Source: Pleodorina starrii (lineage: Eukaryota; Chlorophyta; Chlorophyceae; Chlamydomonadales; Volvocaceae). Taken from it: a stretch of DNA of 64,000 nt. This document shows positions 1 to 55,667 of the stretch, one piece after another. A program made the translations under genes and the position numbers. Within the stretch, counting starts at the first letter, position 1. Every line of letters begins with the position of its first letter. Location: contig BRXU01000002.1 of the NCBI GenBank assembly GCA_030267565.1, positions 5,455,501 through 5,519,500 on the forward strand. The letters are read 5' to 3'. The notes beneath the pieces are model-generated. The model was not told where the DNA came from. It did not search any database and saw nothing but the letters and a program-made list of their open reading frames with translations.

Positions 1-1
1 A

Positions 2-4658: not shown

Positions 4659-7600
4659 CTACTCGCCACCCCGCCTCAGGAAGCTGAGCGCCGCCTTGAT
4701 GCGCGCCATAATATCCCGATGCTCATCCTCACTCACTTCCGCGGGTGGCCCGCCGCCGCCGCGCGAGCGGCCCCGGCCCGAGAACAAGCCCCGTGGGCGG
4801 CCGCCGCCGCCTCCGCCGCCGCCGCTGGACGACGGCGGCGGCAGCCCCTGCGCGGCCGGGGCCGCGGCCGCGCCTGCAGATGCGGCGGGCGAGGTCGACA
4901 ACGGCGCCTCTGGCGCTGCGCTCGAACTGTCACGCGGCGACAGCGCGGCCGCGGCGACGGTGTGATGGCGGCTGTGGTGGCTCTCCGTTGCAACTCGCTT
5001 CGCGCCGCCGCAAAACGCCTTGGCCAGGCGCTGCTTGCTGCTGCTGGTGGTGGTGCTGGCGCTGCTGCTGCATCCGCCGCCGCTGGAGGCGCGAGGGTTG
5101 GGGCTGGGTGCCAGGGGAGGAGCTGCGGCGGAAGTGGAGGAGGTGGCGGCGCGCGCGCCGTCGGCGGCAGCCGTCGCCGCCGTCGGCGCCGTCACAGCGA
5201 CCGAAGTCCACTGCTGCTGAAAATCGGCGGAGTGCCGCCGGGGCGTTGGCTGCAGCTGTTGCTGATGTTGTTGTTGTTGGTGCTGTTCTTGTTGCTGCTG
5301 CAGCAGCAGCGAAGAGGATGGAAGGCTGCGCCTTGGGAGAGGAAGGCCATGGCTGTGCGGCGGACTCGAGTGCGGGGTGCCGGTGCATTGGTTGTAGGGC
5401 CCACGGGGATGCGGCGACGGCGTTGCCGCCGACAGCGGCGACGACGGCGTCGCCGCAATCGTCTCTACCGCCGCCGTGCCTGCCGTAGCCTTCGCCGCTA
5501 CGGGAAGGTGCAAAGCTGGGGCCTGAGATGCGGGCGAGGACGGCGGTGGTGGTGGCAGCGGCAGCTGGCTGTCCGCATACATCTGGAAACGCCTCAGGGC
5601 AGGAGGTGTGGGCGACCGCACTGGCTGCGGGGCACCGCCGCCGCTGGCTGTGCCATGACTGCCGCAGCCGCTGCCGCGGCTTGGAGGCAGCAGCGTCGAG
5701 GCAGCATGGCTCCGGGAGAACATGCACTCCTGCGCAGGCGGACCGCGGACGTCACGGCGTCTCTTCTTCAGAGCCCCCACAATGCGGCATACCACAGCAA
5801 GCCGATCGGAGGCGCCGGAGTGGATGGAGGGCGCAGCCTGGCTAGTGGCTACCCGTCCATCGAAATCATGTGCAGGCGGCGTGCGATCAAATCATGCAGA
5901 CACATGGGGCCCTCGTGGCGCCAGGCGGCATGGTCCCGTCCAGCCCACATCCCCCTAGAAGGAGAGAGAGACAGGAGACCCTAAGCCGTTGCCATCGCCA
6001 GGTTAGTGTACCGGTCCAGAAGCCCACCACACACCCCACTGGTCAAACCCCACTGGTCCAGCTTCCGACTCCATACAATTGCAAACCAGAAGCAGGCAAA
6101 AGCCCCACTCACCTCTCCAGACTCCGTGTTGTGTTCATTGCTGGGAGGAGGGGGCAGGAGAGAGCCGAGGATGCCGTAGCCCCTGCAGCCCCCTGCCGGC
6201 ATGTCGGCGCCGCCAGCGACATCGGACGCCGCCGATCGGGGCCCGGGGTCCGCCGCCCACAGCCCCAGCCCCAGCTGCCTGTTGCTGCCAACGTCGCTGT
6301 TGACGTTGTTACCGTTACCGTTACTGTTGCCGTTGACGTTGAAGCCGTATCTCGCTTCGGCTGACGCGGCGTCGCCAGTAGCAGGTAGCGTATGTTGGGG
6401 CGTGACTGTGGAGCCGTGCTGTACGGCACTGCTGTACCCCCACCTGAAGCTATCGCTACTGCCCGGCGCCGCCAGGTGGGTCTCGGGCGGTGTCGGAGCC
6501 ACCGTGCCGAGCAGAGCGGCAATCCGAGCCAGACCCGCCGGCGATGGCGGCGGCGGCGGCGGTGACGTCGGCAGCGGCGGTGACGTCGGCAGCGGCGGCG
6601 ACGCCAGCGGCGGGGCTGATGGCATCGGCTTGTGATGCCGAGAGTGCAGCAGGCGCCGTGACAGCGTGTCCCACGCGCCTGGAGGCGGCGTGCCGCCGCC
6701 GTGGCCGGTGCCGTACAACTGTGCCCCACTACCGCCGCCGCCTCCGTAGCACGTCAGCGGCACCGAATTGGGGCCATCGGGTGAAGGATGCGCGCCGGTG
6801 AAGAGCTTGCCGAACGATCGGCCAGATGGGGATATCTGCGGTGGCGAGTATACTGCCGACGCCGTGGGCCGGAGGGCCAGCCCGCTGCCGCCGCCGCCGC
6901 CGTCGAGGTCCCCCGCCGCCGGTGAAAGCAGCAGGTTCGCTCTGCGCTGCACGGGCACATGGTCCGGCGACTGATTGCCAGCGGTGGCGGCTGCGGCACT
7001 GACTCCACCGCCGCCGCCGCCGGCGGGGACGCCGAGGACGCTGCCGGGAAGGCTGACGGCACCGGTCAGAGACGCTAGGGTAACCTCGAGAACGGCGGCG
7101 GTGTCGGCGTCGGCGTCATCGTCGTCGTCTCCAGGGAAGCCTCCCTCCGCTGCCATCACCGCCGGGCTCGATGGCCCCGTCGTGGAGGGTCGCGCGATGG
7201 GCGCCCGGGCCGCCAAGCCGCGTCCGCGCCCCGACGCCGGCCCCTCAACCCCCGTGAGATCTGACGGACTGGGCCCGGGCCCCTCCAGCTGCTGCTGCTG
7301 CTGTATGTCGGGTTGTGGCGCAGAGAAGGGACTCCAGGCGGAGCCAAGACCCGGACCCGTGTCGCTGCACCAGCGGGGCGGGTATGAGATTGCGCGGCCG
7401 TCACCCTCACCGTCACCGTCACCTTCACCCCCGCCGCGGCCGCCACCATTGACGCCGCACCGGGCAGGGGCGGCGGCGGTGTGCGAGAGGCTGGGGTCTC
7501 GCAGGCTGGTGCCGTGGGAGCCGCACGGGCCGTCGCCGCCGCTGCGGCTTGCCAGGCCGATGTCGGCGACGCCGCTGAAGGATCCCGTCGAGGTGGGGCC

Positions 7601-8784
7601 GGCGAGGCGGGGTGTGTACATCAGCGGGGTGGCGACGTCGGCCGCGGACACGCGGCGCACTCGGCCGCGGTACGCGGCAGTCTGTGGGCGGGCGGGCTTG
7701 CTGCCGATCCCGTTTGGAGGGGCTTGCGCATCGGCCGGGGAGGGACCAAGCCGCCAGCCAAGGGCCCCCTGCTGCCTAGGACACGGCTCGGCGCAGGCCG
7801 GCGGCGTCATCCGGCTGTAGAGCATCGGCGTCGGCGGCGTCGTGGTATCAGGAGCTGCAGCTGACTGGAGCTCCGTTGACGTCTGGGGGCGGGCTGTTCG
7901 GGAGCCGCCGCCACGACCGTCTGGTTCCGGAGCGGCGGCGGCAGGGGCGGCAGCGGTGGTGGTGGTTGAGGGAGCGGCGGCGGGTGGGGCTTGGACGGCA
8001 GCCGCCGCGGCAGCATCGGCGGCGGTGGGCACCGCCGCCGTGGCCGCCCGGAAGACTTCGCCGAAGCGGTGCGTCGACTGGACATCTTTCACCGTGATTG
8101 TCGTTGGCGTGGTGGCCTGCGTGGGTATACCTTGATAGCCGGTGATGGGCAGGAAGGCGTCCCTGTTGGCGTAATCGTAAGCCAAGATCTTTCCGAGCTC
8201 GTGTTGGATGTGCACTATGGACGATTTCAGTTCGGTCGGGGAGGTGGGGAGGGGCGCCGATGGGCGGTTGGACCATGCAGTTGTTGCGCGACGCCCGCGC
8301 CTGCCTGCGGCGTATCGACCAGGAAGGGAAGGGATCGCAGTTGTTTATTTTTTCAGGATGGTTGACGATTCAGGAAGGTCTCGTCTCTGAAAACGGGCAG
8401 GGCCCCGTGTGGTCTGGCTGGCTCGAAAATCCATTCAGAGCTCCGACGACAGGTTCCGAAACTGCCGTCAGCGTGGATGTGGAAACGCTCGCTGCTCTTT
8501 ACGACCTGAACTACGTAAGATATAACAGGCTTGCGATGGCACGCGGGATCAACCCCAGGTGGAAGCTAGGCTGTCGCGTGCTGTCGACAAACCGGCATGT
8601 CGGGCACCATGTTCCCGCCCCGCGCGGAACTGCGCATCGAGACAATTCATTGCTGAAACTACATTTAGAAGTTGTCGCAGGTGCTCAGGCCAGACGAGCC
8701 CTATACTGCGCTAGGCTCGTTACCTGATTCCTCCGCAGTCGGCTGCGGCTGGCCGTGATCCTCGGCCATCTTAGCTTGCGACAT
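4659..8784 (-). CDS. Family gene B: large disordered protein, tandem paralogue of gene C
   Basis: The model has three exons: 8784-8724 (ATG, 20 codons plus 1 nt), 8304-6113 and 5729-4659, giving 1,107 residues. The donor at 6112 (GTGAGT) and the acceptor at 5730 keep phase 0. The N-terminal exon peptide is MSQAKMAEDHGQPQPTAEES. Exon 2 has HIQHELG.ILAYDY, then RRVSAADVATPLMYTPR, then the core CSDTGPGLGSAWSPFSAPQP, and it ends in a block almost identical to gene C. The last exon has Gln runs, an RRHSAD patch, an RG-rich stretch (RGLFSGRGRSRGG) and the C-terminal block DEHRDIMARIKAALSFLRR. Much of the protein is Ser/Pro/Gly/Ala and is predicted disordered. No signal peptide or membrane span is seen and the function is unknown. 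At its 5' end an alternative frame (QARASRNN) matches gene C better, so the first splice is uncertain. Confidence 0.72.
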
Positions 8785-9862: not shown

Positions 9863-10236
9863 TGTAACGATAATTATACTTATAATATTTCCGACTTATA
9901 ACCAATGGTTAACGGAACTCACTAAAGTGAGGAACGACCGTTGGTTTAGTTGGAGACGATAATTGCGGAGCCCTGTCGTACATCAAGATCTCAAGGCGTC
10001 GGCCTCATATGCCGACTGGTGGAGCTTATGGGATTGAATTCTATTTCTCAGGTGTCTGTTGACACCACCTCTTACTACTGTATGTTTCTGATATTAGTTA
10101 GATTAGTGCTTGGTAAGCTGTTTAGGTGGGCGCCGTCTTCGTCTCCTTCAACTGGTCGTTCTTCGGTCGTCGCTCTGGCGACGCCTGGTACCTCGGTGAG
10201 TTCCCTTCCGCTGCGTAGCGTAGCTTAAACGTTACA
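9863..10236 (+). repeat. 5' long terminal repeat
   Basis: 374 bp, TGTAACG...CGTTACA with 7-bp inverted ends, preceded by the target duplication CCAAC. No differences from the 3' LTR were found. A 92-codon open frame inside it occurs in both LTRs and is not treated as a gene. Confidence 0.96.
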
Positions 10237-10238
10237 AT

Positions 10239-10255
10239 TGGCATCGAGTTCTAGG
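10239..10255 (+). other. Putative primer-binding site of the retrotransposon
   Basis: Begins with TGG two bases after the 5' LTR (TGGCATCGAGTTCTAGG), the position and first bases expected for pairing with a tRNA 3'-CCA end. The tRNA was not identified. The sequence is not the usual initiator-Met site. Confidence 0.5.
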
Positions 10256-10274
10256 TCGCCTTCGCCGACCAAGA

Positions 10275-12341
10275 ATGGCCAAGAAGAAGGACAAGACCAA
10301 GGCTGTTCCTAAACAACCTTCCTTTAATATTCCTGAGGATGATGCGACTCCAGTCGTATCAGGTCGTGAGCCGGCTGCGGCCGATCACACCAATCCTCTC
10401 CCCGGAGCGACTCCAGTCGCGGTTACGGGTACTAATTCGTCTCCTCAAGGAGCAACTAAGGCCAAAGGATCTATGCCTGAGGCCGGCATTCAGCCACAAA
10501 CTCTTCCGCCGCAAGTCGCCGCTACCATCGCAAATGCAAGCGCGCGACGCGTATGGCGGACTTTCATTAAAAAGTTTGCAGACATGAAAGACATTCAATT
10601 GCCTGCTAACTTCACTTCGCTGCCTGCCGCTGATCTCGTTGCGTTCGCGCAGAGCATCAACATGGACCCTGCGGCGCCGGCGGCGGCCCTTGCGGCTGCC
10701 TTAAACAGCGAGGAGCAGTTCGGACAGGCCATGCAGCTCCAGCAGCAACAGCAGCAGCAGGCCCTCGCTGCCGGGCAGGACGGCCGCAACGTCGCCCCGG
10801 CTCTCGATGCCGCGGCAACCGCGGCCGGCCAGCCGGCCGCACCCGGTCAACCGGGTGTGGAGGCACAACAAGGCCTTTCTCAGCAGGCGCTGGCGCAGGT
10901 GCACCAGGTGTGCACCAACGTGTTTCAACACGCCATGGGCCAGATTGTGACGCTCATGGACGCGCGCTTTGCCGAGTTCAAGGCGAGCAACGCTAATGGC
11001 AACCAGGCAGCGGCCGCAGCTGCAGCGGCGGGCATGGCCGCAGCGGCGGCGGCTGACGCCATGGAAGCCGATGGCGCAGGCGCAGATGGCCCCTCCTCGG
11101 ACACCAGCTCTGAGGAGAGCGACAGCAGCGACGACGATGACGCGTCGCCGGCGGGCCGCATCATCAAGTCCACCCGCAAGCACATCCTTGCGGAGCTGAA
11201 GAAGACGGACATGCGCTCGGGCCGCGAGCGCAGCAAAGCCATGAAGGGCTTCGCTAAAACGTTCGCCAGCCTACTAACGCCGGCCCAGGCTGCCAAGATG
11301 TCGGCGTCGGAGCTCGTCGCCTCCTGGCAGGAGCGCGGCAATGGCTACATGCGCCTGCACGACTGGGCGCCTCTGTCCGGCGCCGAGCTGGACCCACGCG
11401 CCTACCTGTCGCACCTGGAATTTGATATGCCGCGGGATGCGGACGTCCAGGCGGCGCTGGCCAGCCTCCGCAGCAACGGCGGCGCGGGCGGAAGCAACGG
11501 CGGCGCCGGCGGCAGTACCGCCGGCGGCTGGCAAAGCCAGGAGGTGAGAAAGAAGGTTCCGGAGCCGTATAAGTTCACGGGGGCCACGGACAAGCATGTC
11601 ACGTGCGTGCAAACGTGGTTCGATACCTTCATCACCTACTGCGACACCACTCACATCAACCCCATTCAGAACCTAGCGTTCTTCACCACGGGGGCTGCAC
11701 AAGAGTGGGTGGTGGGATACATGGGCGACGCGCTGACTAGCGGGGTCGTCGTGACGCGCGAGCAGCTGCGCACCGATTTCCTCGTCCAGTTCGGCGATAT
11801 CCGCCGTCACACTGCCCAGTCCGCACGCGAACGCTTTCACGCGGGGGAGCACAGCATGAAACCGGGCGAAAAGGTCAACCTGTACACGCAGCGCTTCCGC
11901 ACGATCGTGCGGGACGCCAAGGGCATGTCTCAGGTGGATCAGATTTTCTGGTACCTTCACGGGCTTCTCCCCGCACTTAAGAAGGCATGCGCTACGGACG
12001 CCCTGGGCAAGGACTGGGTCTCGGTGGAAGATCTCATTCGCTTTGCACTGAGCCAGGAGCTTCGTGCTAACATTGCGAAATCCGCTTCTAACGCCCACGC
12101 TACGGTGGCCGCTGTTTCTACCCCCTCCCAACCTCGCAAGCAGAAGCGGAAACGCTCCGAGCGCTCCGAGGACGGAGACAAGAAGCCCCCCAGGTGCATT
12201 CACTGCGCCGAGGAGTTCCCCGACGGCTTCCCGCCTTCGCACTTGCGAAAGTGCGACGTCTTTCAGCGCAAGCTGAAGGCCGGGTTGATCAAGGACGGCA
12301 GCAGGGGCAAGAAGGCGGACCGCAAAGATGGCAAGCGTTAG
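10275..12341 (+). CDS. gag: Retrotransposon Gag polyprotein
   Basis: 688 codons from the first ATG after the 5' LTR, forming the structural protein of the virus-like particle. It starts with a basic head (MAKKKDKTK). A Gln/Ala-rich middle and an acidic Ser/Asp patch (SSDTSSEESDSSDDDD, near residue 275) follow. The retrotransposon Gag core lies around residues 435-585, with AQEWVVGYMGD and the FRTIVRDAKGMSQVDQIFWY stretch. At the C-terminus is one zinc knuckle variant, C641-x2-C644-x11-H656-x3-C660, with longer spacing than the classical CCHC. It ends at TAG 12339-12341. The same frame continues open past this codon for another 353 codons, so stop-codon read-through could make a Gag-Pol fusion. 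Confidence 0.92.
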   Translation: MAKKKDKTKAVPKQPSFNIPEDDATPVVSGREPAAADHTNPLPGATPVAVTGTNSSPQGATKAKGSMPEAGIQPQTLPPQVAATIANASARRVWRTFIKKFADMKDIQLPANFTSLPAADLVAFAQSINMDPAAPAAALAAALNSEEQFGQAMQLQQQQQQQALAAGQDGRNVAPALDAAATAAGQPAAPGQPGVEAQQGLSQQALAQVHQVCTNVFQHAMGQIVTLMDARFAEFKASNANGNQAAAAAAAAGMAAAAAADAMEADGAGADGPSSDTSSEESDSSDDDDASPAGRIIKSTRKHILAELKKTDMRSGRERSKAMKGFAKTFASLLTPAQAAKMSASELVASWQERGNGYMRLHDWAPLSGAELDPRAYLSHLEFDMPRDADVQAALASLRSNGGAGGSNGGAGGSTAGGWQSQEVRKKVPEPYKFTGATDKHVTCVQTWFDTFITYCDTTHINPIQNLAFFTTGAAQEWVVGYMGDALTSGVVVTREQLRTDFLVQFGDIRRHTAQSARERFHAGEHSMKPGEKVNLYTQRFRTIVRDAKGMSQVDQIFWYLHGLLPALKKACATDALGKDWVSVEDLIRFALSQELRANIAKSASNAHATVAAVSTPSQPRKQKRKRSERSEDGDKKPPRCIHCAEEFPDGFPPSHLRKCDVFQRKLKAGLIKDGSRGKKADRKDGKR

Positions 12342-16614: not shown

Positions 16615-16644
16615 ATACTGGCATCGCTCCCGGGACGTTCGCTT

Positions 16645-29425: not shown

Positions 29426-31429
29426 CTAGTCACCCCCTCGCTTCAGAAAGCTGAGTGCCTTCTTCATTCGCGCCATGATATCCCGATGTTCGTCAGCACT
29501 GATCTCAACGGCCAATGGCCCGCCGCCGCGCGACCGGGGCCGACCCGGCAACAAGCCCCGTTGCCCCCCACCGCCACCGCCACTGAACGACGACGATGAC
29601 GACGACGGTGGCGGCAACGGCGACGGCGCTGCGCCTGAAGGTGCAGAGGGCAAAGGTGACGACGGCGCCTCCGGCGCAGCGCCCGACGCGCCGCGCGGCT
29701 GCAGCGTCGCGCCGCCGGCGGCGGTGGCGGTGGCGTGATGGCTGAGGGCTTGGTGGCGGTCCGGCGCGTGTCGCTTCGCTCCGACACTCCCGAGCAGGTG
29801 GACGAAGCGCTGCCTGCCGCCGCCGCCGCCGGTGGGGGTGCCGGGGTCGGGGCACGACGCCGGAGAGGCGGCTGCGCAGGGGGAGGTGGCGGCAGAGGCG
29901 GTGGGGGACGCCGCGACGAGCGCGCCATCAGCCTCGCCCGCCGCAAACGCAGCTGCCGCCGCCGCTGGAGTGCTGTCTGCGGCGCGCCGCCGGGGCTGCT
30001 GCTGCTGCTGTTGCTGTTGCTGCAGCTGTTGTGCCAGGAGGTACAGCAGCTGTGGACACGGCGAGAAGCTCTGCTTCGGGCATTGGGACTGCGGCGACGG
30101 CAGAGGGCTCGACTGCGCGGGACCGGTGCTGTGGGTGTAGGGCCCGCGGGGGTGCGGAGAAGGAGATAGGGGCGGCTGCGCTGCCGCCGCGACCCCGCCG
30201 GCGCACATCGCCGCCGCTGGCATTCGAGATGCTTGGCATGCGGGGGCCGGGGGAGAAGGCGGCGGCGTGTGGCGGTCGTCGCCCACAGAGGGGCGCCTGA
30301 AGGCTGGTGGCGTGGGCGGCAGCACAAGCTGCGTTGCGGTGCACGCCCCGCCGCCACCAGCGCCGCTGGCGCAGCCGCAGCCCACGCTGGGAAGCAGCAG
30401 CGCAGGACGCGGGGCCGGACTGCCGGGCGGCTGCAGCGGCGGCGGCGGTGTTTGCGGTGGCGGGGCCGCCTCTGCGGGGAAGACGAAGGGGGACGAGAAA
30501 TCCTGCACGGGGCACCCGGACGGCGGTGGGCGGAGGGTCGTCATCAGCCGGGTAGCTTCGTCAGGGCGTAAGCAGGGCAGGGGCGAGGGGGAGCAAGGGG
30601 GGAGGAGGTCCCGGGCTGCCCTCCCTTGCGGCCGGCCAGGCAAGCGGGGGAGGGAGGTTACGAGGGCGCGCCGGGCTCCTGGGTTGCTGGAAGGAGTTAG
30701 TGGGTATATCGTATAAACGGATGCTACCCCGTGCGACGGGTCTCTATACGTCTCGCTTTGGAACGTTTGCCGCTGCGATAGCATGCTGGGTGCAACATGT
30801 GTGGTGTCGGTGGGGTCGTGAGCGGACACGCCCGACCATCCAGACCTCAATCAGTACACGTCTCTTAGAAGAGAGACGTGATGGGGCATATCATAACGGA
30901 GCGCAGTCCTGAAGGCCAAAACCCAAGCGCGCGTTGCGCCCAACTCATCGACCCAATGTCGTTTCAAGAGCGGTTTCAATCGGTAGTGCGCACCGTATCC
31001 GACCGCGTTCTCGTCATCGCGCTGCGCCTTCAACGTGCCGTACCGTCTGCCGTACGCTGCAGCCTGCATTCCCACGCCTCCGTAGCCATATGCCCTGTCG
31101 GCGTAGCTGGAGCGCCGCCCAACCCGCGCGTGCACCCCCCTGCCGACCAAACTCCTTCCAACGACTCATTATTCGATTGCACCGCAAAGCCCCACTCACC
31201 TCTCCAGATTCCGAGCTGTGTTCATTGCTGGGAGGAGGGGGCAGGAGAGAGCCGAGGATGCCGTAGCCCTTGCAGCCCCCTGCCGGCATGTCGGCGCCGC
31301 CAGCGACATCGGACGCCGCCGATCGGGGCCCGGGGTCCGCCGCCCACAGCCCCAGCCCCAGCTGCCTGTTGCTGCCGACGTCGCTGTTGACATTGTCGTC
31401 ATCTCGCGCCTCGTCGGCCGTCGCAGCTT

Positions 31430-31469
<40 letters not shown>

Positions 31470-33637
31470 CGCCACCTGGGGTCGAGCGAGCGGGGAGCTG
31501 TGCTGCGCCTGTGCACCGCCGATCCCATATCTGAAACTCGCGTTGCTGCCCGGCGCCACCAGGTGGCTGCTGTGGCTACTTCCAAAGCTCCGAGGCGACT
31601 GCCCGCTGCTGTCGGGTGGCGGCCACGGGGCCACGGCCTCAAACAGCGCAGCCACGCCATGACCGGCCAGGGACGCCGGCAGCTCCGCCGCCGGAGCCGC
31701 GGCGCTCGGCGGCGGCGGCTGCCGCAGATGCCGCGGCGGCCGCAACAGGCGCGCCTCCGTTGATGCTGCCGGCGTCGTGCCAGTGTTGGCTCCGAAACCG
31801 CAGGCCGTTGGCGGGGCCGAGCAGGGTCCGTCGCCATAGGGCGACGTGCCGAAGGGCTGGCTGGAAGGCGAGGGTGAGGGCGACCACAGCGGCGGCGAGC
31901 ACACAGCGGGCAGCGTGGGTCGGAGGGCCAGTCCGCTCTCGCCCGTCGGCAGCTGGGACAGCTGAAGGTGAGGCCGGCGCTGCAGCGGCGGGTGATGCGC
32001 GGCCCCGCAGCAGCTGACGGGAACGCTGGCAACGCTCCCCGGCAGACTGGCGGCACTGACCAAAGGACCGGCCATTGCGTCGTCAGCCGCGGCGCCCAAG
32101 TCCCCGCAGGCCCCCCCGGCTGCCGAGCTCGGTGTTCCCGTGGTGGAGGGCCGCGCGATGGGCGCCCGGGCCGCCAAGCCGCGTCCGCGCCCCGACGCCG
32201 GCCCCTCACACCCGGTGAGGGAAGGCCGGAGCTCCCTGGGACTGGGACTGGGCCCGGGTCCCTCCAGCTGCTGCTGCTGCTGCTGCATGTCGGGTTGCGG
32301 CGCAGAGAAGGGACTCCAGGCGGAGACCAGCCCAGGACCCGTGTCGCTGCACGAGTACATCAAATGGGAGATGACGCGGGTGCGAGCCGCCGCGTCGCCG
32401 CCGGCGCCACCGCCACGCGGGGCAGGCAGGCCGGGGATGGACGAGGACCAGGGGTCCCGTGAGACAGCTCCACAGCAGCTGACCGTGCCGCCGGCTGCTG
32501 CTGCTGCTGCTGCTGCCGCTGCTCTGAGGGAGCCGGTAGAGGAGGGGCCCCCGTCGATGCTGGCAGCTGGGGCTGGGGGGCGCGGCGTGTACTGCAGCGG
32601 GGTTGGGACGTCCGTCGCGGACATGCGGCGCAGGCGGCCCCGGAGCGCTGCGGTCTCCAGGCAGGCTGGCGGCAGGATCTGATTTGTGGTGCTGACAGAG
32701 CGGTTGGGGAGGAACAAATTGACCTCTGCAGCATGGCTGGCGAGGCCGAGCTCGACTCTGTGGCGGGCTCGGGCGGCGGCGGTCGCTTCCGGTTGAAGGG
32801 CCGCGGCGTCGTCGGCGTCGTCGGACGAGTCCTCGTCGGAAGTGGGGCCCTCGCCGACTTCTGGCGGCGGGCCGCTCGGTGCGGCGGCGGTTCCGTCGCT
32901 CCGGTTGTTTACTTCCCAAACCGTGGCGGCTGCTGTTGGCGCCGAGTGAGGGCCCAGGGCAGCAGCAGCGTCTCCAGTGTTGATCGTTCCCGGCCCTGGC
33001 CCCGCCGCCGCCGCCGCCGCCGCCGCCGAAGAAGAAGTTGCCATCATGACAGCGCCGAAGCGGGGGGTCGCCTTGACCTTAATGGTCTTCGGCATGACCA
33101 GCGTGGGTTGTTCCGCGCTGCCGGCGTCCTTGCTGACGTAATCGTACGGCAGAGTCGTGCCGAGCTCGTACTGAATGCGCGTCATCGACAACCTGTGTCC
33201 GGTCGAGGAGGCGGCGTTGATGTGCAGGCTCATATTGTTGCTGTGGGAAATGCGAGCCTGCCTGCGGCGTCCACAAAGGAGCGGAGCGCACAAAGGTGAA
33301 AAGAGAAAGAGGAACGAGATGGGGCACGCTACGCCCCGACCCCTCGGAAAAGTGATTCCATGGGAAAATGTTCTTAATTCAGAAGTTATACATACACGCT
33401 GCCGCCTGCGTTCTGAAACGTTCACATTAGCCTGGCAAACCCGGTTTCGGATGAAACCAAGCTCTACGCGTATAAGCGGACAAAGTGGGATTATCTGGCC
33501 AATTTTCAGCAGAACTGGCCAAGTTCAGCAGAAAAATGCAGACCAAAAATTCAGGTCGACTCTCACACCGTCCTAACTAAACCTAACCTGAAAACATCCT
33601 CTGCACTCTGCCCCCGTGTGCTGTGCTCCTCTGTCAT
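29426..33637 (-). CDS. Family gene C: large disordered protein, closest paralogue of gene B
   Basis: Exons 33637-33588, 33261-31200 and 30502-29426 give 1,062 residues with all phases consistent (2, then 0). Exon 1 encodes MTEEHSTRGQSAEDVF; its junction to exon 2 creates AEDVFRQARISHSNNMSLHI. This matches gene F's uninterrupted AEDVLRRARIAHGSRMATLA, which supports the splice. Exon 2 continues with RIQYELGTTLPYDY, an acidic SDEDSSDDADD, RRMSATDVPTPLQYTPR, HLMYSCSDTGPGLVSAWSPF and APQPDMQQQQQQ. Its end is almost identical to gene B (DVGSNRQLGLGLWAADPGP). The last exon has Pro-rich PPTPPAFRRPS, a Gln run, QRFVHLLGSVGAKRHA, an RG-rich patch (QRGLLPGRPRSRGGG) and the C-terminal block DEHRDIMARMKKALSFLKR. 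Function is unknown. RRxS-type sites suggest basophilic-kinase targets, which is an inference. Confidence 0.78.
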
Positions 33638-38890: not shown

Positions 38891-41800
38891 TCAATCGTTC
38901 TCCGCGTTCCGAGCTTCGTTCTCCTGGCGACGGAGGTCGTTGAGCGTCCGGAACAGTCGCGCCATGAGGCCATCCGCCCCATCCAGCTCGCTGGGCCCAC
39001 CACCACCACCACCGGCCCCGTTCGCACCCCGCGCCCCCGCCGCGCCCTCCGACCTCTCCGCGGCCCGCCCGCCGCTGCCGCCTACGCTGTAGTGCTGCGG
39101 CCTGCCGCCCGCGCCTGCGCCGCCGCCACCACCCAGCAGCGCCTCCGCCGCCGACAGCCCTCCTCCGGCGGCGACGCCTCCGCCACCTCCGCCACCTCCG
39201 CCGCCCTGCAGCGCGACGTCCCCGTCACTCAGCTTCCTCAGGAGCACCGCCCGTCGGTGCCCGTTGGAGCCGAAGCTCAATAAATTGTGCTGCGGGTGCG
39301 GATGCGGGTGCTTGGACGGTTGGTGCGGGTGTGGCAGCCCGCCGGCCGGCGGCGATGGAAACGCGGGTGGCGCCGCACCCTGCTGCTTCGCACCCGCTGC
39401 ACCACCGCCGTTGCCGCTGCCGCTCCCTCCGCCTACGTTGACGATGACTGCCGCCAGCCGCGGGTCGTCCAGGCAGGGCTGGCTCGAGGTGCGCTTCGTC
39501 AGATCTGGCGGCAGCGCGTTCCCGGTTGGGGTGGTGGCAGTCGAGGTGGCGGCTCCCGAGGAGGAGGCCGAGGGACTGCCCGGCAAATCGTCGCAGCAGA
39601 GGGGCCGGAAGAGGTGCTGCTCGTGTGCTGCAGAAGCAGACAGGTGGTGGTGGTGGTGCTGGTGCTGGTGGTGGTTTCGGAAGCGGACGTGGGTTTGGGG
39701 GCCCGTGGGGCTGGCGGCCTGCGGGGAAAACAGGTTGAAGCCGAACCGGCCCTGCGGGGACGACAGCCAGGGAGGGCCACCGCCGCCCGTGGCGGCGTGA
39801 GGGCGGCGCGGCGCGCGATGTTGGGAGCTGGTTCTGGAGTTGGACGGTTTGTACTCAGCGGTTACGGTACTTGCAAAACTGGCCGGTTGAAGTGCGCCGG
39901 AGCGCTTTGCTTCCCGTCCCATCCCGTCCCATCCCGTCCCATCCCATCCCGTCCCGGCCCGGCCCTCCCAGCTCCCTACACCGACCCGTGTCAAGTGCAG
40001 CGATGCGCGCAGTGTCAGTGTCATTGTCCCCTTTCACCCTCCCCCCCCTTCGCCACGGCTGGAACTCACCGGATGGCCCGTGGGGCTCGAGGCAGCAGTG
40101 ACCGCGTGTCGGTGCGGGCTGGGGCCAGCGCCGCCGCTGGTGCTGCCCCCGGCTTCCATCAGGTCACCGAACAACGACGTGGCCGGGGACTGCAACCCTG
40201 CCGCCGCCGCCGTGGCGCTCTGCCAGCTCCTATCGGGGCCGCCGCCCTGCCACCCCGCGTCCCCGGCGCCGCCGCCTCCTGGGTTTGTGTTGCGGCTGAA
40301 GCTGGTGAGCTGCAGCGGGGGGCCCCTGCCGGGCTGCATCGACGGCTTGCGCGACAGGGGGCGCACCAAGTCGAGCGAGGTTTCGGAGCGCTGCTGCAGG
40401 GAGCTCTCCGCCCGAGAGAGCTTCCAGGGAGGACGGTCGGCCTGGAGCAGCATGTACGACATCAAGCTCGACGTCGACGTCGACGACGACGGCGCCGCCG
40501 GCGACGAGGAGATCTGCAGCGGCGGCGGCGGCGGCGGGGTTGGAGTGGACGGCGTCGAAGCAGGCGGCGAATCGCGGGCCGCTGCCGATGTCGCCGACAC
40601 CAACGACACGACCTTGCGCATCTGCCGCGCGGCATCCACCGGCGGTGACGCCGAACGCATCGCAGCCATGATCGCAGAACCAGACTGCTGCCCTGCGCCC
40701 TGTTGCGGCTGCTGCTGCTGCGGCGGCGGCGTTGGCAGCTGCGGGTTGTTGGCGCTCGCGCGGGGGGAGGCTTGCCACCTGGCAACACGAGGAACCACTG
40801 GCGCCGCGGCGGCGGCGCCGGGCCGTGACGGCGCCCGTGGCGTGGGCTTCAACGCCCCGCCTGACGCGTGCGGCGAGGCGGGCACGGAGAGGCCCAGATG
40901 CAGCTGCCACTCGCCCGTGAAGTCGTCACCGTCGGCGTCTCCACCGGCCACGTCCTTGACGTTGCCGCCCACGCTGGCGAAGGCCATGGGGGATGCGGCG
41001 GTGGCGGTGACGGCGACATTGTCGACCGTGAACCGCGCGAGGCTCACGTCAGACAGGTTTTCCAATGACTGGTAGTAACGACGCTGCAGGCGCGGCGCGT
41101 TCGCGGGCGGCTGCGGCCTCAGGCATGAGAGGGCGCTCTCCAGTCCAGGCGCCTTGGCCAGGCAGTCGAAGGAAGGCAGCGCGCCAGGAGCCTCGGGGTT
41201 GTCAGCAGCGTCGTCGTCATCGCCGTTGCCCTCGTCGCGATCGCCGCCGCCGACGCCGCTGAAGCCACCACCAGTCGCGGCGCTGAAGCGAGGGCTGGAA
41301 AGGGGCGCCGCGGCCGCGCCGCCGCCGGCGTCTTCCCGGGCTGCGAGCGCCATCAGCCTCGGCCGCGCGCCGACGGGGCTGGCGGCGCCGCTGGGCTGCA
41401 GGGCGCCGGCAGCTGTGTCGTGCAGGAGCCACCCCGCTGAGGAGCTGCCCTGCGGACTCATCGCCGAATGGGCGGCGGCAGCGGCGGCAGCGGCGGCGGC
41501 TGGGGATGCTGCGGTGGGGAGATCGCGGGTAGCGCCCTCGGCGCCGGGCCTCTGGCACCGTGAGCCGGATGGCGCAAGGCGGTGCTGTTGCTGGAGCCGA
41601 TGGCGCGTCCCAGAGGGAGTTTCTGCAGGCGAGGGGCTGCTGCCGTCTGGCGACGCCTCAGTGTCCGTGTACAGGGAAACAGTGGGGATGGTTATGGTCG
41701 TCCAGGTCCGTGTGAGGGCGCGCACGCATGGCGTCCTGGGAGGCACCGAGTTGAGGGCGGCAGTCCCAGCGGTGCGTGCGGCCTCTGGCTCGAGCCAATG

Positions 41801-42058
41801 CGCCTCGTCCTCCGCATCTTTAGTACTGTCTGTGTTATTGTTGTCGACTGAGGCCCGGGAGCCCTCGGAGGTGCCGGAGGCTATCGAGTCGCGGCCGTAT
41901 TGCATTTTGATGAGAGATGGCTTCGGTGGCGGGGCCCGACTGAAGGACTGTTGGTGGACATACGCCAGATTGCGGTTGCATGTCTCAAGGGCGCTTGTGA
42001 GGACGTCTGCAGCGGTCGGCTGTGTGCGCGGCTGTCCGGGCATCAACCTGGCCTGCAT
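38891..42058 (-). CDS. Family gene D: large disordered protein, paralogue of gene E
   Basis: Two exons, 42058-40070 (663 codons from ATG) and 39751-38891, joined in phase 0 (donor CCATCCG/GTGAGT, acceptor GTCCCCGCAG), give 949 residues. The N-terminus has RLMPGQPRTQPTAADVLTSA then ETCNRNLAYVHQQ and SLIKMQYGRDS, matching the family's first block. The core is KAPGLESALSCLRPQPP, followed by RRYYQSLENLSDVSLARFTV and EWQLHLGLSVP. The last exon is rich in His (HHQHQHHHHH), Gly and Ser, with LLRKLSDGDVALQGG. It ends in GLMARLFRTLNDLRRQENEA, the counterpart of the C-terminal block of genes B, C and E. An AG acceptor just inside the ATG codon's neighbourhood (ATGCAG/GCCAGG) corresponds to the gene E splice site. 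A further upstream mini-exon (for example MIHVLLGGG at about 42125-42100) is therefore possible. Function unknown. Confidence 0.75.
39902..39966. repeat. TCCCG/TCCCA pentanucleotide array in the gene D intron
   Basis: Tandem CCCGT/CCCAT/CCGGC-type 5-bp units lie within the 318-nt intron of gene D. On the transcribed sense strand this reads GGGAC/GGGAT. Confidence 0.75.
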
Positions 42059-45097: not shown

Positions 45098-48000
45098 TCA
45101 TCTGTACAACTTGGCCTCCTGCCGCCGCCGAACCTCCTGGAGCTCGCGGAACAGCCGCCCCACGACGCCGTCGTCCTCCTCCTCCCCTCCCTGGCCCCCC
45201 GCCCCCGCCCCCGAATCGCCGCCCTCGTCGGCGCCCCCGCGGCCGGCCCCTCCGCGTATGCGCAGCTTGGTGATCAGCGACGACGTGGCTGGAAGCTCCG
45301 CCCGCGGGACCCTACCGGAGCCGCCGCCGCCGCCGCCGCCGCAGCTACCGCCCCAGCCCCCGGCGGACGAACCGCATTCCGAAGCCCTGCTTGATCCCGA
45401 GACTGACCAGCCCCTGCCCAGGGCCCCGCCCACCGCAGGCGCGGAGGAAGCGCCGCCGGCGGAGGGCTCCAGGAACGGTGACGCAGGACGGTGGGCAGCC
45501 GGCTCGGACTCACTGACCGATGCCAGGTATCTGGCGGCCGGCGTCAGCGGCGGCGCCAGGAAAGCCGCTGCTACGGGCACGGGGATGCGCGGCGGCCAAA
45601 TGCTGCCGGGCTCCGTCGACACCTCGGCCGCCGCCGCCGCCGCCGAGTCGTCGCAGTGCTGATCCGATGGCAGCGGCGACGGCGGAGGCGCCGGCGGCGC
45701 CGGTGGCCGCGCCGCCGCATTCTGCCGGCCCAGCCGCTGCGGCTGACCCAGCGACCGCGCCGTCAGCGATGGCGTTGCCGCTGCCGCGGCGCGCAGCTCC
45801 GAAGGCGGAGGCCTTGGCGAAGGGATGCCGGGCGCGTCTGGATGTGCCGGGTCGTTTCGACTGCTGCCGATAGGGGCCCAGGCGGCGCGAGCCACGCCCG
45901 TAAACAGCCACTGCCGTCGGTCGGCATTTCCCGACGGCGACGGATGCGGCGGCGGCGTCGGTGTTGCCGGCGATAACGGCAGCGCCAGCGGCGACGGCGG
46001 CGGGTGCGCTAGCGACAGCGGCGGCGGCCTCTTCGCCTCCTTTCGTGCTCGGACGGCTGCATCCGCTGCTGAGGCTCCCACCCTGGAGTCTGGGCGCGCG
46101 GTCGGGCCGACCTGTGGCGATGGCGCGGGGCTCAGTCGGCCGCCTTCTTGCAGGTCTGGACGATTTTCCGCCTCGGACGATCGGGGTGCTGCAAGGTCCT
46201 GCGGCGGCCGAAAGGATTCAGGAAGCGCAAGAAAACGCTGTTGCCTCGTGGACTGGAAGAGACGGTAATGGTTGCTACACGGGTAACGGTGCGTGGGCCC
46301 GCTGGGCGCGATGCAGGGGCCCAGGGAGGGGGCACGGAGTCAGCCCGCAGCAGGAGGCGTTGTTTCCCACCTTCAGCCCACCCACCCATCTCCCACCAAC
46401 GCCCCATTGCGCTGTAAACCGCCTCACCTGCGGGCACCGGCCGGCACCAGCCGGGCTGGGGACGGTGTCGCCAGGGACTCGCAGAACCCCCACCCGCGTG
46501 CCTCCGCCGGCCGAGCCGACGTTGTGGCCGACCCCGCCGCAGACCTGGGAGCTGCGACCACTGCCCCTCATCCGCGTCACATCGTCCACAAAGGCATGCG
46601 GCGGCGGCTCCAGTTGAATCGGCTGCGCCGGCTGCAGCAGCACCTGCTGCTGCGACGGCGGCGGCGGCGGCGGCGGTGGCGGTGGCGGCAGCGGCTGCCT
46701 GCTGCGTTCGATCCGTGCCGGTGCCATGCGGCTCGTGGTCGCCTCGAGCAGCGGCACAGATACCACCGGGCTCCGCGCGCCGGTGCTTGGACTGTCCAGA
46801 TACGACCGCGAATCGCAGGCGTCTTGTTCCGGCGGCGGGAGCGGCTGGTACATAGGCGACATCGGCGGGCTCGCCGACGCCGGCGACGCCGCCAGCGGCA
46901 GCGGCGGCGATGCCGGCGCCGGGCAAGCGGCGGCGGCGGCGGCGGCCACGGCGGTCTCCAGCCGGCCGAAGCGCTCCGTGCTGCGATGGAAATGCGGCGC
47001 CGACGCCGACGGGCCGTGCACCGCGCACGACGCCGCCTTCCGCACGTCCCGCGGCGACTGCGTTGCCGCCAGGGGCGTTGCGGCGAGCTGCACCGAACCG
47101 GAGCTGCTCAGGCGGCTGGCGGGGGAGGGCGCGGTGCGGGGGCTGCTGCTGGACAGGGGCGGCGAGCCGGGCACGGCCAGTGGCGCCATGGTGGGTCGGT
47201 ACATGGGCCGGCTGGTCGGGCGCAGCGGGACGCCGCCGCCGCCGCCGCTGCCGCCGCCGGCGGCGGCGCCGACGGGGTTGGTCGTGCGGGCAAAACTGCC
47301 GCTAAGCGCGCCGCCATGCCGGCGGCAGCCCACCGGCCACTCGCCCACCAGGGTTCCTTCGCAGCCGCTGCCGCCGAAGGTGCTGGAGCCACCGTCGCTG
47401 GCGGCGTGGGTGCCGCTCGTGCTCGGGGCTGCGGTGCTGGAGGCGGTGGCACCGGTGCCGGGTCTCGAGGCGGCGTCGTCGCTCGTACTCGTTGTGGAGT
47501 TGCCGCCCGTGTCCGCACCCGCGCTCGCCGAGGTGCCCGGTGTGCCAAGGATGTCCGCGAACGAGGGCACGCCGCCGGTGCTGGCGGTGCCGGCGCCGCT
47601 GCCGTGCAGGAAGCTGGGGACCACGGGGGCCCTGCGGTCGCCAGGCTCCGGCTCCGGGGTTTGCACCGGTACGGCGCCAATGGTGGCGGCCACGACGGCC
47701 GACGGCCCTGCATTGTTGTACATGAGGTGCAGCAGGTGGGCCCTATCCAGGCGGGGCCTGCCCTCCGGTGTCTGCTCCGTGGTCAGACACGCGGCCCGCT
47801 GGACCCAGTGCTCGCAGCCAATGTCGGGGGAGGCGGCGCCGCCGCTGCTGCGGCTGCCGCTGCCGCCGCCGCCGCCGTCTTGGAGCGAGGCCGCGACCGA
47901 TGCCGCAGCCGCGGCCATGGCGTCGCGGAACGCTTGGCAGTCGGGGGCGGATTGACGGCGGCGTGTTGCAGCGGTGAGGATGCTGGCGGTGCGCCAGTCG

Positions 48001-48617
48001 TGGGCGGTGACTTCGGGGGACGCTGTGGGGGAGGCTGGCCGGGTGATGGGGTCGTCCGGCAAGACGTTGATCGCGGCGAGGGCGGCCGCTTCGGGTGTGT
48101 AAAACTGGATGGGGATGGGGCGCACGTCGTATGTCTTTGATGGATTGGGGCTGAAGCGCGTGATTTGGTTGATGGAAAGGAAGGTTGGACGGAGGGGAGG
48201 AGTGTCCGAGGAGGAGCCAATTTCGCCGGCGCTGGTACAGGAGGGCCGCAGAGCTGAAGCAGAAGCTGGAGAGTTGAAGCCTGAATAACTGATATCGTCG
48301 TTAGGACTGTCGAAACAGCCGTCTCCGTATTGCACAACCGAAGGGGACTGGAACTGATGCTGGACCCGAGAGTAGGCGAACCGGGCGTCGCGAAAGCACG
48401 TCACGTTTCTTGTACACGATTCTCGAGCTAGAGATAGAACATCTCCCGGGCTCAGGCGTGATGGCGGCTCCGGCAGGAGCTTGGTCTGCGCCACGAAGTG
48501 TTGCCAATGTCACTCAACCGCAAGGTTGAAGCTGTCGCATACGGAGGCTTCTATGCTGGCCTTATAGTCTTATAAACTCACCATAACCTCATTGCGCTGC
48601 TGTTCCAATGTTTTCAT
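45098..48617 (-). CDS. Family gene E: large disordered protein, paralogue of gene D
   Basis: Exons 48617-48582 (12 codons, MKTLEQQRNEVM, donor GTGAGT), 48485-46428 and 46111-45098 are all in phase 0 and give 1,035 residues. The second exon's frame has no ATG of its own near its start, which is why the small first exon is required. The N-terminal block reads TKLLPEPPSRLSPGDVLSLA, ARESCTRNVTCF and then SVVQYGDG. Next come YDVRPIPIQFYTPE, RRRQSAPDCQAFRDAM and the core HLMYNNAGPSAVVAATIGAV. Pro/Ser/Gly tracts and a Pro run (PPPPPPPPPPPP) precede the last intron. The last exon ends DDGVVGRLFRELQEVRRRQ, the same C-terminal block as gene D. Function is unknown. The gene lies head to tail with D and F. 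Confidence 0.75.
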
Positions 48618-52387: not shown

Positions 52388-55300
52388 TTACGACGGCCGC
52401 GGCGGCAAGCCGCTGCACAGCATCGCGCCTTGCGACTGCTGTGACTGCAGAAGCTGATGCTGCTGCGGCGACGATGGTGCGCCGCCGCCGCTGCCGCCGC
52501 CACTGCCGTACCTTCCCAGCGTTGTCGCGTGCAGGAGCCCCGCCGGCGCCATACTCCCTCCCGCCGTCGCTCCCTGCAAGGCGGCCTGCAGCCCCACCGC
52601 CTGCTGTTGCTGCTGTTGCGGCGCGCGCGGGGAGGTATATGGGTATGGCGGCGGGTGCTGATGTGCTTGCGGCGGCGGTTGCGGATGCGGGTGCGTGGGC
52701 GGATGCCCATTCTGGTGGTGGTGGTGGTGATGGTGGTGGCTTCCCGGGGCCACGGCCGCCGTCGACGACTCGCCCTTGAGGCGACGCTTCTCTTCCGATG
52801 ATGCGCGAGAGGTAGCGCCGCCACCGGCGTGCTTGGGTCGCAACATCGATGCCAGGACACATCCCGCGTAGACCATAGCGGCGGCGCCGTCGAGCTCTCC
52901 GCCGGGGGAGGGCAGTCCCGGAGAAAAGGGGCGGAGCATGGAGAAGTCTAGCGGCGGCGGCGGCGGTGGCGGCAGGGCCCCCGGCGAGGGCGCCAGGCTG
53001 GTGGCCGGGGGCTGCTGGAGCGGACTTCCGGCCTGCACACGGCACACGCGGGGAAAGTCATTGCGCCGCGGGAAACCACAGTCAGTTTCGGACAGCCACG
53101 TCTGTCGAGTGACGAGTTGAGCCTAGTTGAGGGCATTGCTGTCGATGCACGACAGGGGTGGAAATAAACAACAGCAAATGCGAATCCGCATCTGCGGAAC
53201 ATACAGTTTTGTCTTGGCTCGGAGCAGCAAAGCAAAAGTACTCGACGCTGATGGGCGGGGCGCAGGCCGCAAGTGCGGAGTGGGTCGTGGTTTCGGAACG
53301 CAGAGATGCGAGGGGAGTACCAGTAACATCCGACGTGACGCCGCGACGCGCTCTATCAAGCTACAAGGCGGACCGAAAGCGACCATAGGGCGTGCCCTGC
53401 ATGCATACCTGCTGTTGCTGTTGCATTGCCGGCGACGGTGTCGACGGCGGTTGCGCAACTGGCTGCCGGAGCGGTGGTTGCGGAGCGGCCTGTGCCGACA
53501 CATCCCCAGAAGCCACCCGTGGCACCGGTCCAGACAACAGCATCAGCGACCGCCGTCCCAGCGGCGTCTGCGGCTGCTGCAGCTGCGCCGGCGGCGGCGG
53601 GGGCTGCGGCTGCTGGGGCGGCAGGCCTCCGCACGGCACCGGGGCATGGGCCGTAGGCGCGGAGCCGCCATCCTCGCCCGCGGCAACGGCGGCGACAGTC
53701 AAGAGCGCCGATGTCAGCTCCCTGGGAGCCGGTCGCAGGAGCGGCCCAGACCGGCCGCCGAAGGCGACGATCGGCGGGCGGTGCGGATGTGGGTGCCGCG
53801 CGGGGAAGCCCCCTCCGCTGCGGCCGACGGCCAAGGGCTCGTCGGGGGCACCCCGGCTGCTGCTGCCGCTGACCGGCCGGGTCCAAGAGCTTCCGGACCA
53901 GGAGCTTGATAGATACCCCGCCGAGGCCGTCGTGGGAGTCACCGAGCGGCGAGGGCCGGTGGGGGGAGCGTCCCGTGGGTCGCGCGGGGCGGCCGTGGGC
54001 GATACGAGGCGCCAGGCGCCCGTCGGACCGCCGGCGCCGTGGTCCTGCGCGCCACCATTGAGGTTGATGCCGCTCGTGGGGCGCCCGGCAGCGGCGGCGG
54101 CGGGGCCCGGGCTCGCGTTTCGGGAGCCAGGGTTGGAGGGCGAGGTGATGAGGGGCAGTGTGGTGATCGGGATGGGCATGTAGACCCGGTCGCCGCGGGC
54201 GGGCCGCGGCGGCGGCGCCGTCAGGCCCGCGGCGGAGCTGCTGGACGCCTGCTGCGGCGTCGGCGGCTGCTGTGGCCCGATCTGCTGCTGCTGCTGTGAA
54301 GTCGGCGGCGCGGGTGATGGCGGGCGGTGGGCCTGCGGCGGCGGCGGCGACGAGGCCGACATGGAGGTCGCCGGGGAGAGGGACGCCGCGGCGGCCGGGG
54401 GCACGGCGAACGCGAGCGACTTGATGGGGCCGGACAGGTGGGCCGAGGACGCGTGCGCCGAGGAATCGGACGAGAGCAGACACGACTTGCTCGGGGAGCC
54501 CTGGAGGAACGGCGCGCCGCCAGTGGTGGTGGCGACAGCGGCGTTGGCAGAGGCAGCCGGGTACAGCGACGATCGCGGCGTCTGAAGGCCGCCGGAGGCG
54601 GGGCCACCGCCGCCACCGCCGCCGCCGCCGCCGCCTTCGGCCGCCCCGGTCGTACCCACGGCCGTAGTCGAGGTCCGCAGGGACGGCAGCGCCGTGGCGC
54701 CCGGCGCTGAGGTGCGTTTGGTGCGGGGCCGCCAGCTGGGCTGCGGGGAGGAGGCGAGCAGGGTGGCGAGCGCCGAGCCGGGAGCCGGCATGACGGCGGC
54801 TTTTGACCAGGGGTCACTCATTTGGCTGTGGAGCGACCAAGCGAATGCCGCCGCAGAGTCCGAGTCCCAGGGGGATATGCCGCTGTGCGCGCCGCCGATG
54901 CAGCCGGCGGGCGAGTCCTCCGCCCAGGCTGCGGACGGTGCGCGGTGGCCCAGGTTGCCGCTGTTGCTGGCGCTGTTGCTGGCGCCGCTGTCGACGGCCG
55001 GGTCGCGGAATCTGACGGTGCCCCGCGCGAAGAGCTCCTCGCCCTCGTCGTCGAAGGGTTTGTTGGTGTTGGTGTTGCTGGTGTCGGCGGCGGAATTGGG
55101 GTTGGGGCTGGGGCTGGGGCTGAGGTTGGGGATGAGGAGGGAGGGGGAGTTGGGGTTGGGGCTGGGGGTGCCGTCGGTGAGGGTCAGGTTGCGGCGGCTG
55201 CTGGAGCGGCGGCTGGCCGAGTTGGCCGCGGTGATGGAGGGAGAGGTGGAGGACTGGGGCCGGCAGGAGGACTGGGGCCTGGAGCCGGCGGGGCACCACG

Positions 55301-55667
55301 CCGCGCTGTTTGTGCGCGACACGGGGCGCGACGACTCGGCGCTCTTGTTGTGCGGCGTGCTGCCATCACTCTCGCTCGGAGGACCGTCGTCGCCGCTGTC
55401 GCCTTCATCGCTGTCGGTGAAGACGCACACCTCGCCGTAAGCGTAGGCTGTGTCGTCAAAGACGGAAAAGGTGGGCTTGGACTTGTCAAACTGCATGCGG
55501 ATAAGCGACGTGCGCCGGTTTCGCGAGCCGGAGCGCTCATCCACGACGCGGTTGACGTGCGCCAGCGTCGCCATGCGGCTGCCGTGCGCGATTCTTGCTC
55601 GACGAAGCACGTCTTCGGCGGAGCTGTCTTGCAGGGCCAGTTGTTTAACCTCGGGCACCGACAACAT
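52388..55667 (-). CDS. Family gene F: divergent member with a different C-terminus
   Basis: Two exons, 55667-53409 (753 codons from ATG) and 53032-52388, joined in phase 0 (CAGCAG/GTATGC; GTGTGCAG acceptor), give 967 residues. The N-terminus encodes, without a break, SSAEDVLRRARIAHGSRMAT then RRTSLIRMQFDKSK, the family's first block. GEVCVFTDSDEGDSGDD and a core-like GSALATLLASSPQPSWRP follow. The middle is Ser/Pro/Gly-rich with repeats (PNPNSPSLLIPNLSPSPSPN). The last exon has LPPPPPPPLDFSMLRPFSPG, VYAGCVLASMLRPKHAG, eight consecutive His, and Gln runs. The C-terminal helix block found in B-E is not seen here, so either a further exon is missed or the end was replaced. The RAD23 gene lies upstream, divergently transcribed. 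Confidence 0.75.

Follow-up and report, generated by a model that had tools for sequence, protein, structure and literature searches.

The window analysed here is a 64,000-nucleotide stretch of the Pleodorina starrii genome (positions 5,455,501-5,519,500 of contig C2; 136,057,477 bases in 95 contigs), and it holds members of a family of genes, designated A to G, that encode large proteins of low sequence complexity with short conserved islands. The published genome of the bisexual strain NIES-4479 comprises 136.1 Mbp in 95 contigs, according to the excerpts drawn on here, and its annotation drew on RNA sequencing of asexual and sexually induced samples (PMC10256686); the sequenced strain of this colonial green alga is therefore taken to be NIES-4479. 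Our analyses have identified at least seven genes in the family, one of which is inverted (A) and one of which lies on another contig (G), rather than five in one row. The initial annotation had proposed a five-gene family on one strand with a single skeleton; the five minus-strand models (genes B to F) stand, but the set of islands varies by gene and the family is larger, A and G being members absent from that description.

Gene models and copy number

In each of the genes B to F one long exon is joined to the last exon across a phase-0 intron. Putative short first exons are placed ahead of A, B, D, E and F; those of B, D, E and F derive from an open frame and a donor. Genes C and D correspond to the deposited hypothetical proteins PLESTF_001674300 and PLESTF_001674400 (100% identity over the aligned part), which are unnamed and have no Pfam domain listed. 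The exon junctions of C and D are identical to those of the deposited proteins (P0002 for C, P0001 for D), while those of B, E and F were set by eye; the phase-0 last intron described in the initial annotation thus holds in all five models, with independent agreement for two of them. The gene features are as follows.

-2394..1312, plus strand: gene A, crossing the left window edge with 1..1312 inside the window, where the 3' part of its long exon lies
4659..5729, minus strand: gene B last exon, similar to the C last exon (2.4e-41)
6113..8304, minus strand: gene B main exon, ending in phase 0, with a tentative start at 8304, similar to C (7.4e-88)
8724..8784, minus strand: gene B putative first exon, MSQAKMAEDHGQPQPTAEES, open frame and GT donor only
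29426..30502, minus strand: gene C last exon, equal to P0002
31200..33233, minus strand: gene C main exon, beginning where the deposited protein does (P0002)
38891..39751, minus strand: gene D last exon, equal to P0001
40070..42052, minus strand: gene D main exon, gene model and deposited protein P0001
42251..42349, minus strand: gene D putative first exon (MKTLQPGR...), open frame and GC donor only
45098..46252, minus strand: gene E last exon, junction by eye
46428..48485, minus strand: gene E main exon, junction by eye
48582..48617, minus strand: gene E putative first exon, MKTLEQQRNEVM, open frame and GT donor only
52388..53032, minus strand: gene F last exon, junction by eye; no C-terminal block found within
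53409..55670, minus strand: gene F main exon, junction by eye
55852..55884, minus strand: gene F putative first exon (MMLGSTGSVMM), open frame and GT donor only

The long exon of gene A starts at -1675 and its putative first exon at -2394 (MFNMLNPFLQLVQRNDEELK), both outside the window, and the long exon reaches a stop codon without need of a last intron. Gene G was found by searching the genome with exon 1 of C, which led to three places, viz. C itself, B (7.4e-88) and the new locus on contig C3 (5.7e-17). The main exon of G ends GNGSEFGE/gtggg in phase 0 and its last exon ends HRDIVARMKAALSFLRRGGD. A long microsatellite lies in its reading frame and would read HTHT, PIPI or PYPY depending on the frame, and no N-terminal motif was found upstream within the DNA read; G may therefore be a truncated or rearranged copy. 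This microsatellite, of kilobase size and open in frame with G (L028 and L029, contig C3, approximately 8.434-8.440 Mb), may be part of the protein or may lie in an intron.

The copy number is a lower bound. The genome protein searches covered exon 1 of C and the last exons of B, C and D, and they miss members, because the last exons of B and C failed to find G although they found each other. Weak genome matches of the B, D and C last exons (E 7e-5 to 0.08) were taken as low-complexity matches, and no C-terminal block was seen at L032 and L033, the only weak last-exon matches inspected. No relative of F was found on the viral contigs searched.

Conserved islands in otherwise divergent proteins

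The residues A, G, S, P, Q and T make up 61-65% of each of the proteins A to F, which also contain long polyG, polyQ and polyP runs, in agreement with the low complexity and free divergence between islands noted in the initial annotation. The islands were tested by building a profile without one gene, seeking the motif in that gene, and counting how many windows of other open reading frames (ORFs) in 304 kb reached its score. Two N-terminal islands and one C-terminal island emerge from these tests, and they are listed below with the number of random windows, out of 1141, that scored as high, or with the tests that bear on them.

4671..4721, minus strand: gene B C-terminal block, HRDIMARIKAALSFLRR (held-out profile; selection)
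8195..8224, minus strand: gene B motif 2, SSIVHIQHEL, weak (26)
29438..29488, minus strand: gene C C-terminal block, HRDIMARMKKALSFLKR (held-out profile; AlphaFold2; selection)
33162..33191, minus strand: gene C motif 2, LSMTRIQYEL (0)
38927..38977, minus strand: gene D C-terminal block, ADGLMARLFRTLNDLRR (held-out profile; hidden Markov model, HMM)
41891..41920, minus strand: gene D motif 2, PSLIKMQYGR (0)
41960..42016, minus strand: gene D DVL helix, TAADVLTSALETCNRNLAY (0; helix predicted at residues 14-36)
45125..45175, minus strand: gene E C-terminal block, DDGVVGRLFRELQEVRR (held-out profile; pairwise shuffles; HMM leave-one-out fails)
48321..48350, minus strand: gene E motif 2, QSPSVVQYGD, weak (43)
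48396..48452, minus strand: gene E DVL helix, SPGDVLSLARESCTRNVTC (0)
55482..55511, minus strand: gene F motif 2, TSLIRMQFDK (0)
55566..55622, minus strand: gene F DVL helix, SAEDVLRRARIAHGSRMAT (1)

The DVL helix was correctly placed in all four held-out genes that carry it. These are D, E and F, as the initial annotation had it, and also A (0 random windows as high), but the block is not present in B or C. Motif 2, of the form [RKH]-hydrophobic-Q-aromatic, was correctly placed in 6/6 held-out genes (A, 4 windows as high); the (I/M)Q(Y/F) motif described earlier thus stands as a profile in A to F, while its literal form fails in B (IQH) and E (VQY). In gene A the open frame -1807..1312 carries NPDDVLRSALEKHAKYKSF and then GMARLQFGDG, and the held-out profiles place both motifs. 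The predicted spacing of 15-30 residues is borne out, the distance from the end of the DVL block to the (I/M/V/L)Q(Y/F) triplet being 21-26 residues in A, D, E and F. A pattern combining DVL..A with motif 2, written after the genes had been seen, matches 4/6494 ORFs (>=25 amino acids, 304 kb), viz. A, D, E and F. An unsupervised 11-mer search was topped by poly-Gly, and motif 2 was the best result otherwise, by a narrow margin (124.2; the highest score among 12 shuffles was 121.3). In N-terminal-block HMM leave-one-out tests over 304 kb, held-out E and F ranked top among non-training ORFs (0.42 and 0.099) and D second (0.0072), after the family member C (0.0042); without A in training, over 184 kb, D, E and F were each unrecovered.

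When the N-terminal 60 residues of D were aligned with E, F and A, a helix was predicted at residues 14-36, with residues 11-30 at a predicted local distance difference test (pLDDT) score of 89-90. Amphipathicity of this helix exceeds that of shuffles in D only (8/1000 as high; A 171, E 218, F 840). All four DVL blocks open with S/T/N-x-x-D, which is the form of the helix capping box rule, and in our reading this start is such a box. The deposited D protein begins at an internal methionine (MQYGRD), without the conserved DVL block (window 41891-42052); the public D annotation may be N-terminally truncated, since this start leaves out that block.

At the C-terminus, the held-out block of each of B, C, D and E is scored by the profile of the other three above 737/737 other ORF C-termini in 304 kb. 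HMM leave-one-out over 184 kb recovered B (8.7e-10), C (2.7e-8) and D (1.1e-3), and E is linked to D in pairwise comparison (z 8.7; 0/500 shuffles reach that score). Pairwise shuffles back B-C and D-E and, at the C-terminus, also B-D (0/500) and B-E (2/500); no pair with F reached such support in these tests. Gene G, which played no part in the definition of the block, shares 17/20 residues with B and 17/20 with C. No C-terminal block was found in A or F. The amphipathic C-terminal block claimed for B to E is a related block in all four, but its amphipathicity is just mildly above shuffles, the number of shuffles out of 1000 with as high a hydrophobic moment being 79 for B, 41 for C, 137 for D and 123 for E.

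Two further patches that had been described as common fare less well. Only B and C have the TP..(Y/F)T patch literally. As a held-out profile it also holds for D (0/289 windows as high for each of B, C and D), but in E (13) and F (22) the profile scored best at another place. The PGL.SA.S core is literal in B, C and D, with a variant in F and none seen in E; its held-out profile gives 0/67 for B and C and is weak for D, where 2/67 random windows were as good. Against shuffled sequences and control ORFs the N-terminal helix, motif 2 and the C-terminal block hold, while the (Y/F)T patch in E and F does not. The claim of one skeleton common to all five genes is too strong, because B and C are without the DVL block, F is without the C-terminal block, and no PGL core was seen in E. 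Apparent homology beyond B-C and D-E (SEG filtering, no composition correction; E 2.5e-4 to 0.4) was of low complexity and non-collinear, and was not accepted.

The earlier remark that no named family with this layout is known agrees with our searches. Nothing lies above the Pfam cut-off for the ten exons of B to F and gene A, the sole Pfam-A match noted having E 0.046 and 14 bits against a cut-off of 27.4, and NCBIfam, a library built for prokaryotes, yielded 0 families (E <=0.1) for gene A and nine exons of B to F, the F last exon being left out. Identity with a known family is rejected on these Pfam and NCBIfam results. The best match of A and the main exons of D, E and F among PDB sequences (E 0.078) was taken as chance. 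Database searches with C and D returned the query proteins alone, from 7990 and 7980 candidates sharing most words, limits that were probably filled by low-complexity words; a search with residues 1-125 of A gave 551 candidates, none at E <=10 and not even a P. starrii entry for A itself. Because of these limits, the database searches do not show absence outside Pleodorina. Literature searches, confined to open-licence PMC papers, gave no description of the family among the matches listed.

Selection, predicted structure and short linear motifs

The C-terminal block is under measurable purifying selection in paralogs (B, C and G) on two contigs. Over the last 20 codons the ratio of nonsynonymous to synonymous substitution rates (dN/dS) is 0.15 for B-C, 0.10 for B-G and 0.05 for C-G, values that rest on few sites, with synonymous sites near saturation in C-G (dS 1.89). 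For B-C the ratio is 0.51 over all 947 aligned codons and 0.36 in 336 well-aligned codons outside a converted patch, chosen by a filter that favours identity. This patch is the following feature.

6099..6309 (gene B) and 31186..31396 (gene C), minus strand: 211-bp patch, 97% identical in B and C, spanning the exon end and splice donor

Its dS is 0.08, versus 0.74 in well-aligned codons outside it, and the other B/C alignments of >=70 bp are 66-83% identical; the patch is likely the product of recent gene conversion. These data also bear on the view that A to G are mostly unconstrained GC-rich ORFs, alike through composition and recent duplication and with little function. Free divergence, homopolymer runs, the B-C gene conversion, the microsatellite within the G frame and the want of similarity beyond short islands in most pairs are what that view would expect. 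We nevertheless judge it very unlikely in light of the motif tests, in which held-out genes were compared with shuffled and neighbouring ORFs, the low dN/dS at the C-terminal block of three paralogs on two contigs, and the identical junctions shared by the deposited C and D models.

The protein of gene C, modelled alone with AlphaFold2, has a mean pLDDT of 32.6, with 990/1036 residues below 50, as disorder would lead one to expect. The best stretch is the C-terminal helix (residues 1014-1034), and another short helix (830-841) sits where a polyglutamine run begins. No globular fold is thus predicted over most of the length of C, the one protein to which this result applies; single-sequence AlphaFold2 can yield low pLDDT for any orphan protein and is weak proof of disorder. 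Such proteins could be nuclear or RNA-associated condensate formers, whose function would lie in low complexity as such, with the islands merely setting location, and their A/G/S/P/Q/T content and long homopolymer runs fit this idea; that islands exist, and that one of them is constrained at the codon level, suggests that specific contacts matter, and we regard the condensate explanation as unlikely. Still less probable is a role of the C-terminal helix as a basic segment that binds membranes or calmodulin, which would make these peripheral membrane or Ca-responsive proteins. In its favour, B, C, D, E and G share a conserved basic C-terminal helix, but the hydrophobic moment is only mildly above shuffles (41-137/1000 as high) and A and F are without the block.

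Short linear motifs were counted in the A to F proteins against locally shuffled copies of them. The pattern [RK][RK]xS, read as a basophilic-kinase site, occurs 16 times versus 4.9+-2.1 in shuffled copies (0/1000 as many), while the control forms are fewer (reversed 2, threonine form 1, alanine form 6). Counting overlaps once gives 15 versus 4.9 (0/2000), approximately threefold, and the excess persists without C (13 versus 4.4, 1/2000), without A (11 versus 3.6) and without both (9 versus 3.1, 11/2000). Every one of A to F has at least one site, and with G added the count is 15 versus 5.5 (2/2000), the reversed form giving 3. Among 48 control ORFs of >=400 amino acids, many probably not genes, forward and reversed RRxS matches numbered 33 and 31. 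The following sites in B to F were found by motif scan.

5229..5240, minus strand: gene B, RRHS
7646..7657, minus strand: gene B, RRVS
30287..30298, minus strand: gene C, RRPS
32619..32630, minus strand: gene C, RRMS, same place as RRVS of B
39227..39238, minus strand: gene D, RKLS
39485..39496, minus strand: gene D, KRTS
40340..40351, minus strand: gene D, RKPS
47949..47960, minus strand: gene E, RRQS
54708..54719, minus strand: gene F, KRTS
55200..55211, minus strand: gene F, RRSS
55506..55517, minus strand: gene F, RRTS, immediately ahead of motif 2

These counts provide moderate evidence for selection in favour of basophilic-kinase sites. Since [RK][RK]xS is one of 17 patterns tried after the sequences had been inspected and [ST]P is also enriched (179 versus 141, 0/1000), a basophilic kinase is not the sole reading. 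Also enriched were 14-3-3-like sites (26 versus 15.7, 8/1000) and RxxS/T (92 versus 72, 4/1000); D-box-like motifs numbered 7 versus 3.9 (88/1000), SP.[RK] was depleted (4 versus 10.1), and LC8, SxIP, PPxY, NPF, FFAT-like, cyclin RxL and KEN motifs were not enriched in A to F over shuffles.

Other elements share the window with these genes. An LTR (long terminal repeat) retrotransposon lies upstream of gene B (9863-17032, plus strand), with reverse transcriptase, RNase H, an integrase zinc-binding domain and a chromodomain above the Pfam cut-off and a gag-like ORF and integrase core below it; its insertion is recent, since its 374-bp LTRs are identical and flanked by a 5-bp target-site duplication (CCAAC). 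Possible DNA transposon ORFs (20514-24707, plus strand) show ZSWIM1-3 RNaseH-like similarity that stays under the cut-off (E 1.1e-4); farther along, a CxC...CxH stretch is SWIM-like by eye. Adjoining gene F is a RAD23-like gene (57312-58500, plus strand), in which a ubiquitin-like domain (1.8e-13) precedes a UBA match that is weak and under the cut-off.

A possible family of kinase-regulated adaptors

We tentatively propose, as the reading we favour but hold short of probable, that A to G form a single family whose large, mostly disordered proteins act as soluble kinase-regulated adaptors or scaffolds and which, duplicated locally, is kept functional via short islands. Gene structure, homology, the islands, purifying selection on the C-terminal block, the low predicted structure of C and the [RK][RK]xS enrichment are observed; phosphorylation itself, the kinase, the partners and the cellular role are inferred from them. 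The family would arise through local duplication and diverge fast, with gene conversion between copies, while function would be kept by the N-terminal helix (A, D, E and F), motif 2 (A to F, although B and E have weak instances) and the C-terminal helix (in B, C, D, E and G). That the conserved islands bind a common partner is a fair inference; in this reading partners would be held by the helices and by motif 2, and the long middle would be a phosphorylation platform for a basophilic kinase (PKA/PKG/CaMK-type) acting at the [RK][RK]xS sites. Besides the limits on the selection estimates, the structure model and the choice of kinase pattern given above, several observations weigh against this proposal: G has no [RK][RK]xS site; of the two sites each in B and C, one is positionally shared; E is unrecovered by the C-terminal HMM leave-one-out over 184 kb; A is absent among the 7 matches listed in the N-terminal leave-one-out over 304 kb; and no member was seen with every island, B and C being without the DVL helix, F and A without the C-terminal block, and G without a seen N-terminal motif.

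Inhibitor-1 and DARPP-32 are disordered proteins, much shorter than those of A to G. The proteins might resemble them as disordered regulators of protein phosphatase 1 (PP1), with motif 2 docking the phosphatase and the basophilic-kinase sites further on. Motif 2 reads RLQF in A, which also carries SRVQFFEG, RIQY in C, KMQY in D and RMQF in F, and a relaxed RVxF pattern, picked after the motif had been seen, is enriched in A to F (14 versus 5.9, 3/1000). Excerpts on inhibitor-1 likewise describe an N-terminal [RK]IQF-type PP1-binding motif (R8KIQF12) and a basophilic-kinase site, the PKA site Thr35 (PMC5758809). However, the PP1 consensus [RK]x0-1[VI]{P}[FW], as quoted in part of one account (PMC4794898), is satisfied by 0/6 motif-2 instances, the F or W that it demands being replaced by Y or H in 4/6 members, and its strict matches are not enriched (2, both in A, versus 1.2; 338/1000 shuffles as many). 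Membership among the PP1 regulators is ruled out on this strict consensus, no sequence similarity is claimed, and docking to PP1, retained as a rival only, seems highly improbable.

The family has a partial parallel in P. starrii itself, in whose tandem paralog clusters, e.g. seven GCS1 genes in approximately 100 kb, local paralogs likewise have diversified non-domain sequence and exon structure, in the excerpts available (PMC10256686). The GCS1 paralogs retain the recognised HAP2-GCS1 domain, whereas the A to G family retains short islands only. A bolder version, which we consider unlikely, is that the family is young and turns over fast, its disordered, kinase-regulated adaptors bearing conserved end helices and an RVxF-like dock. 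Its expansion in Pleodorina would rewire a conserved kinase/phosphatase hub, the signalling platform evolving through duplication and gene conversion with approximately 50 of some 1000 residues kept.

Proteins of this kind are often labelled hypothetical and, because they align poorly, tend to be missed in comparisons; the islands give handles on them, viz. three peptides for partner tests and approximately 15 serines as targets for phosphoproteomics. In Volvox carteri, according to the excerpted account (PMC5919742), lineage-specific genes are expressed preferentially in somatic cells, and for this reason families of such a kind are candidates in cell-type evolution; for the A to G family, a link of this sort is speculation.

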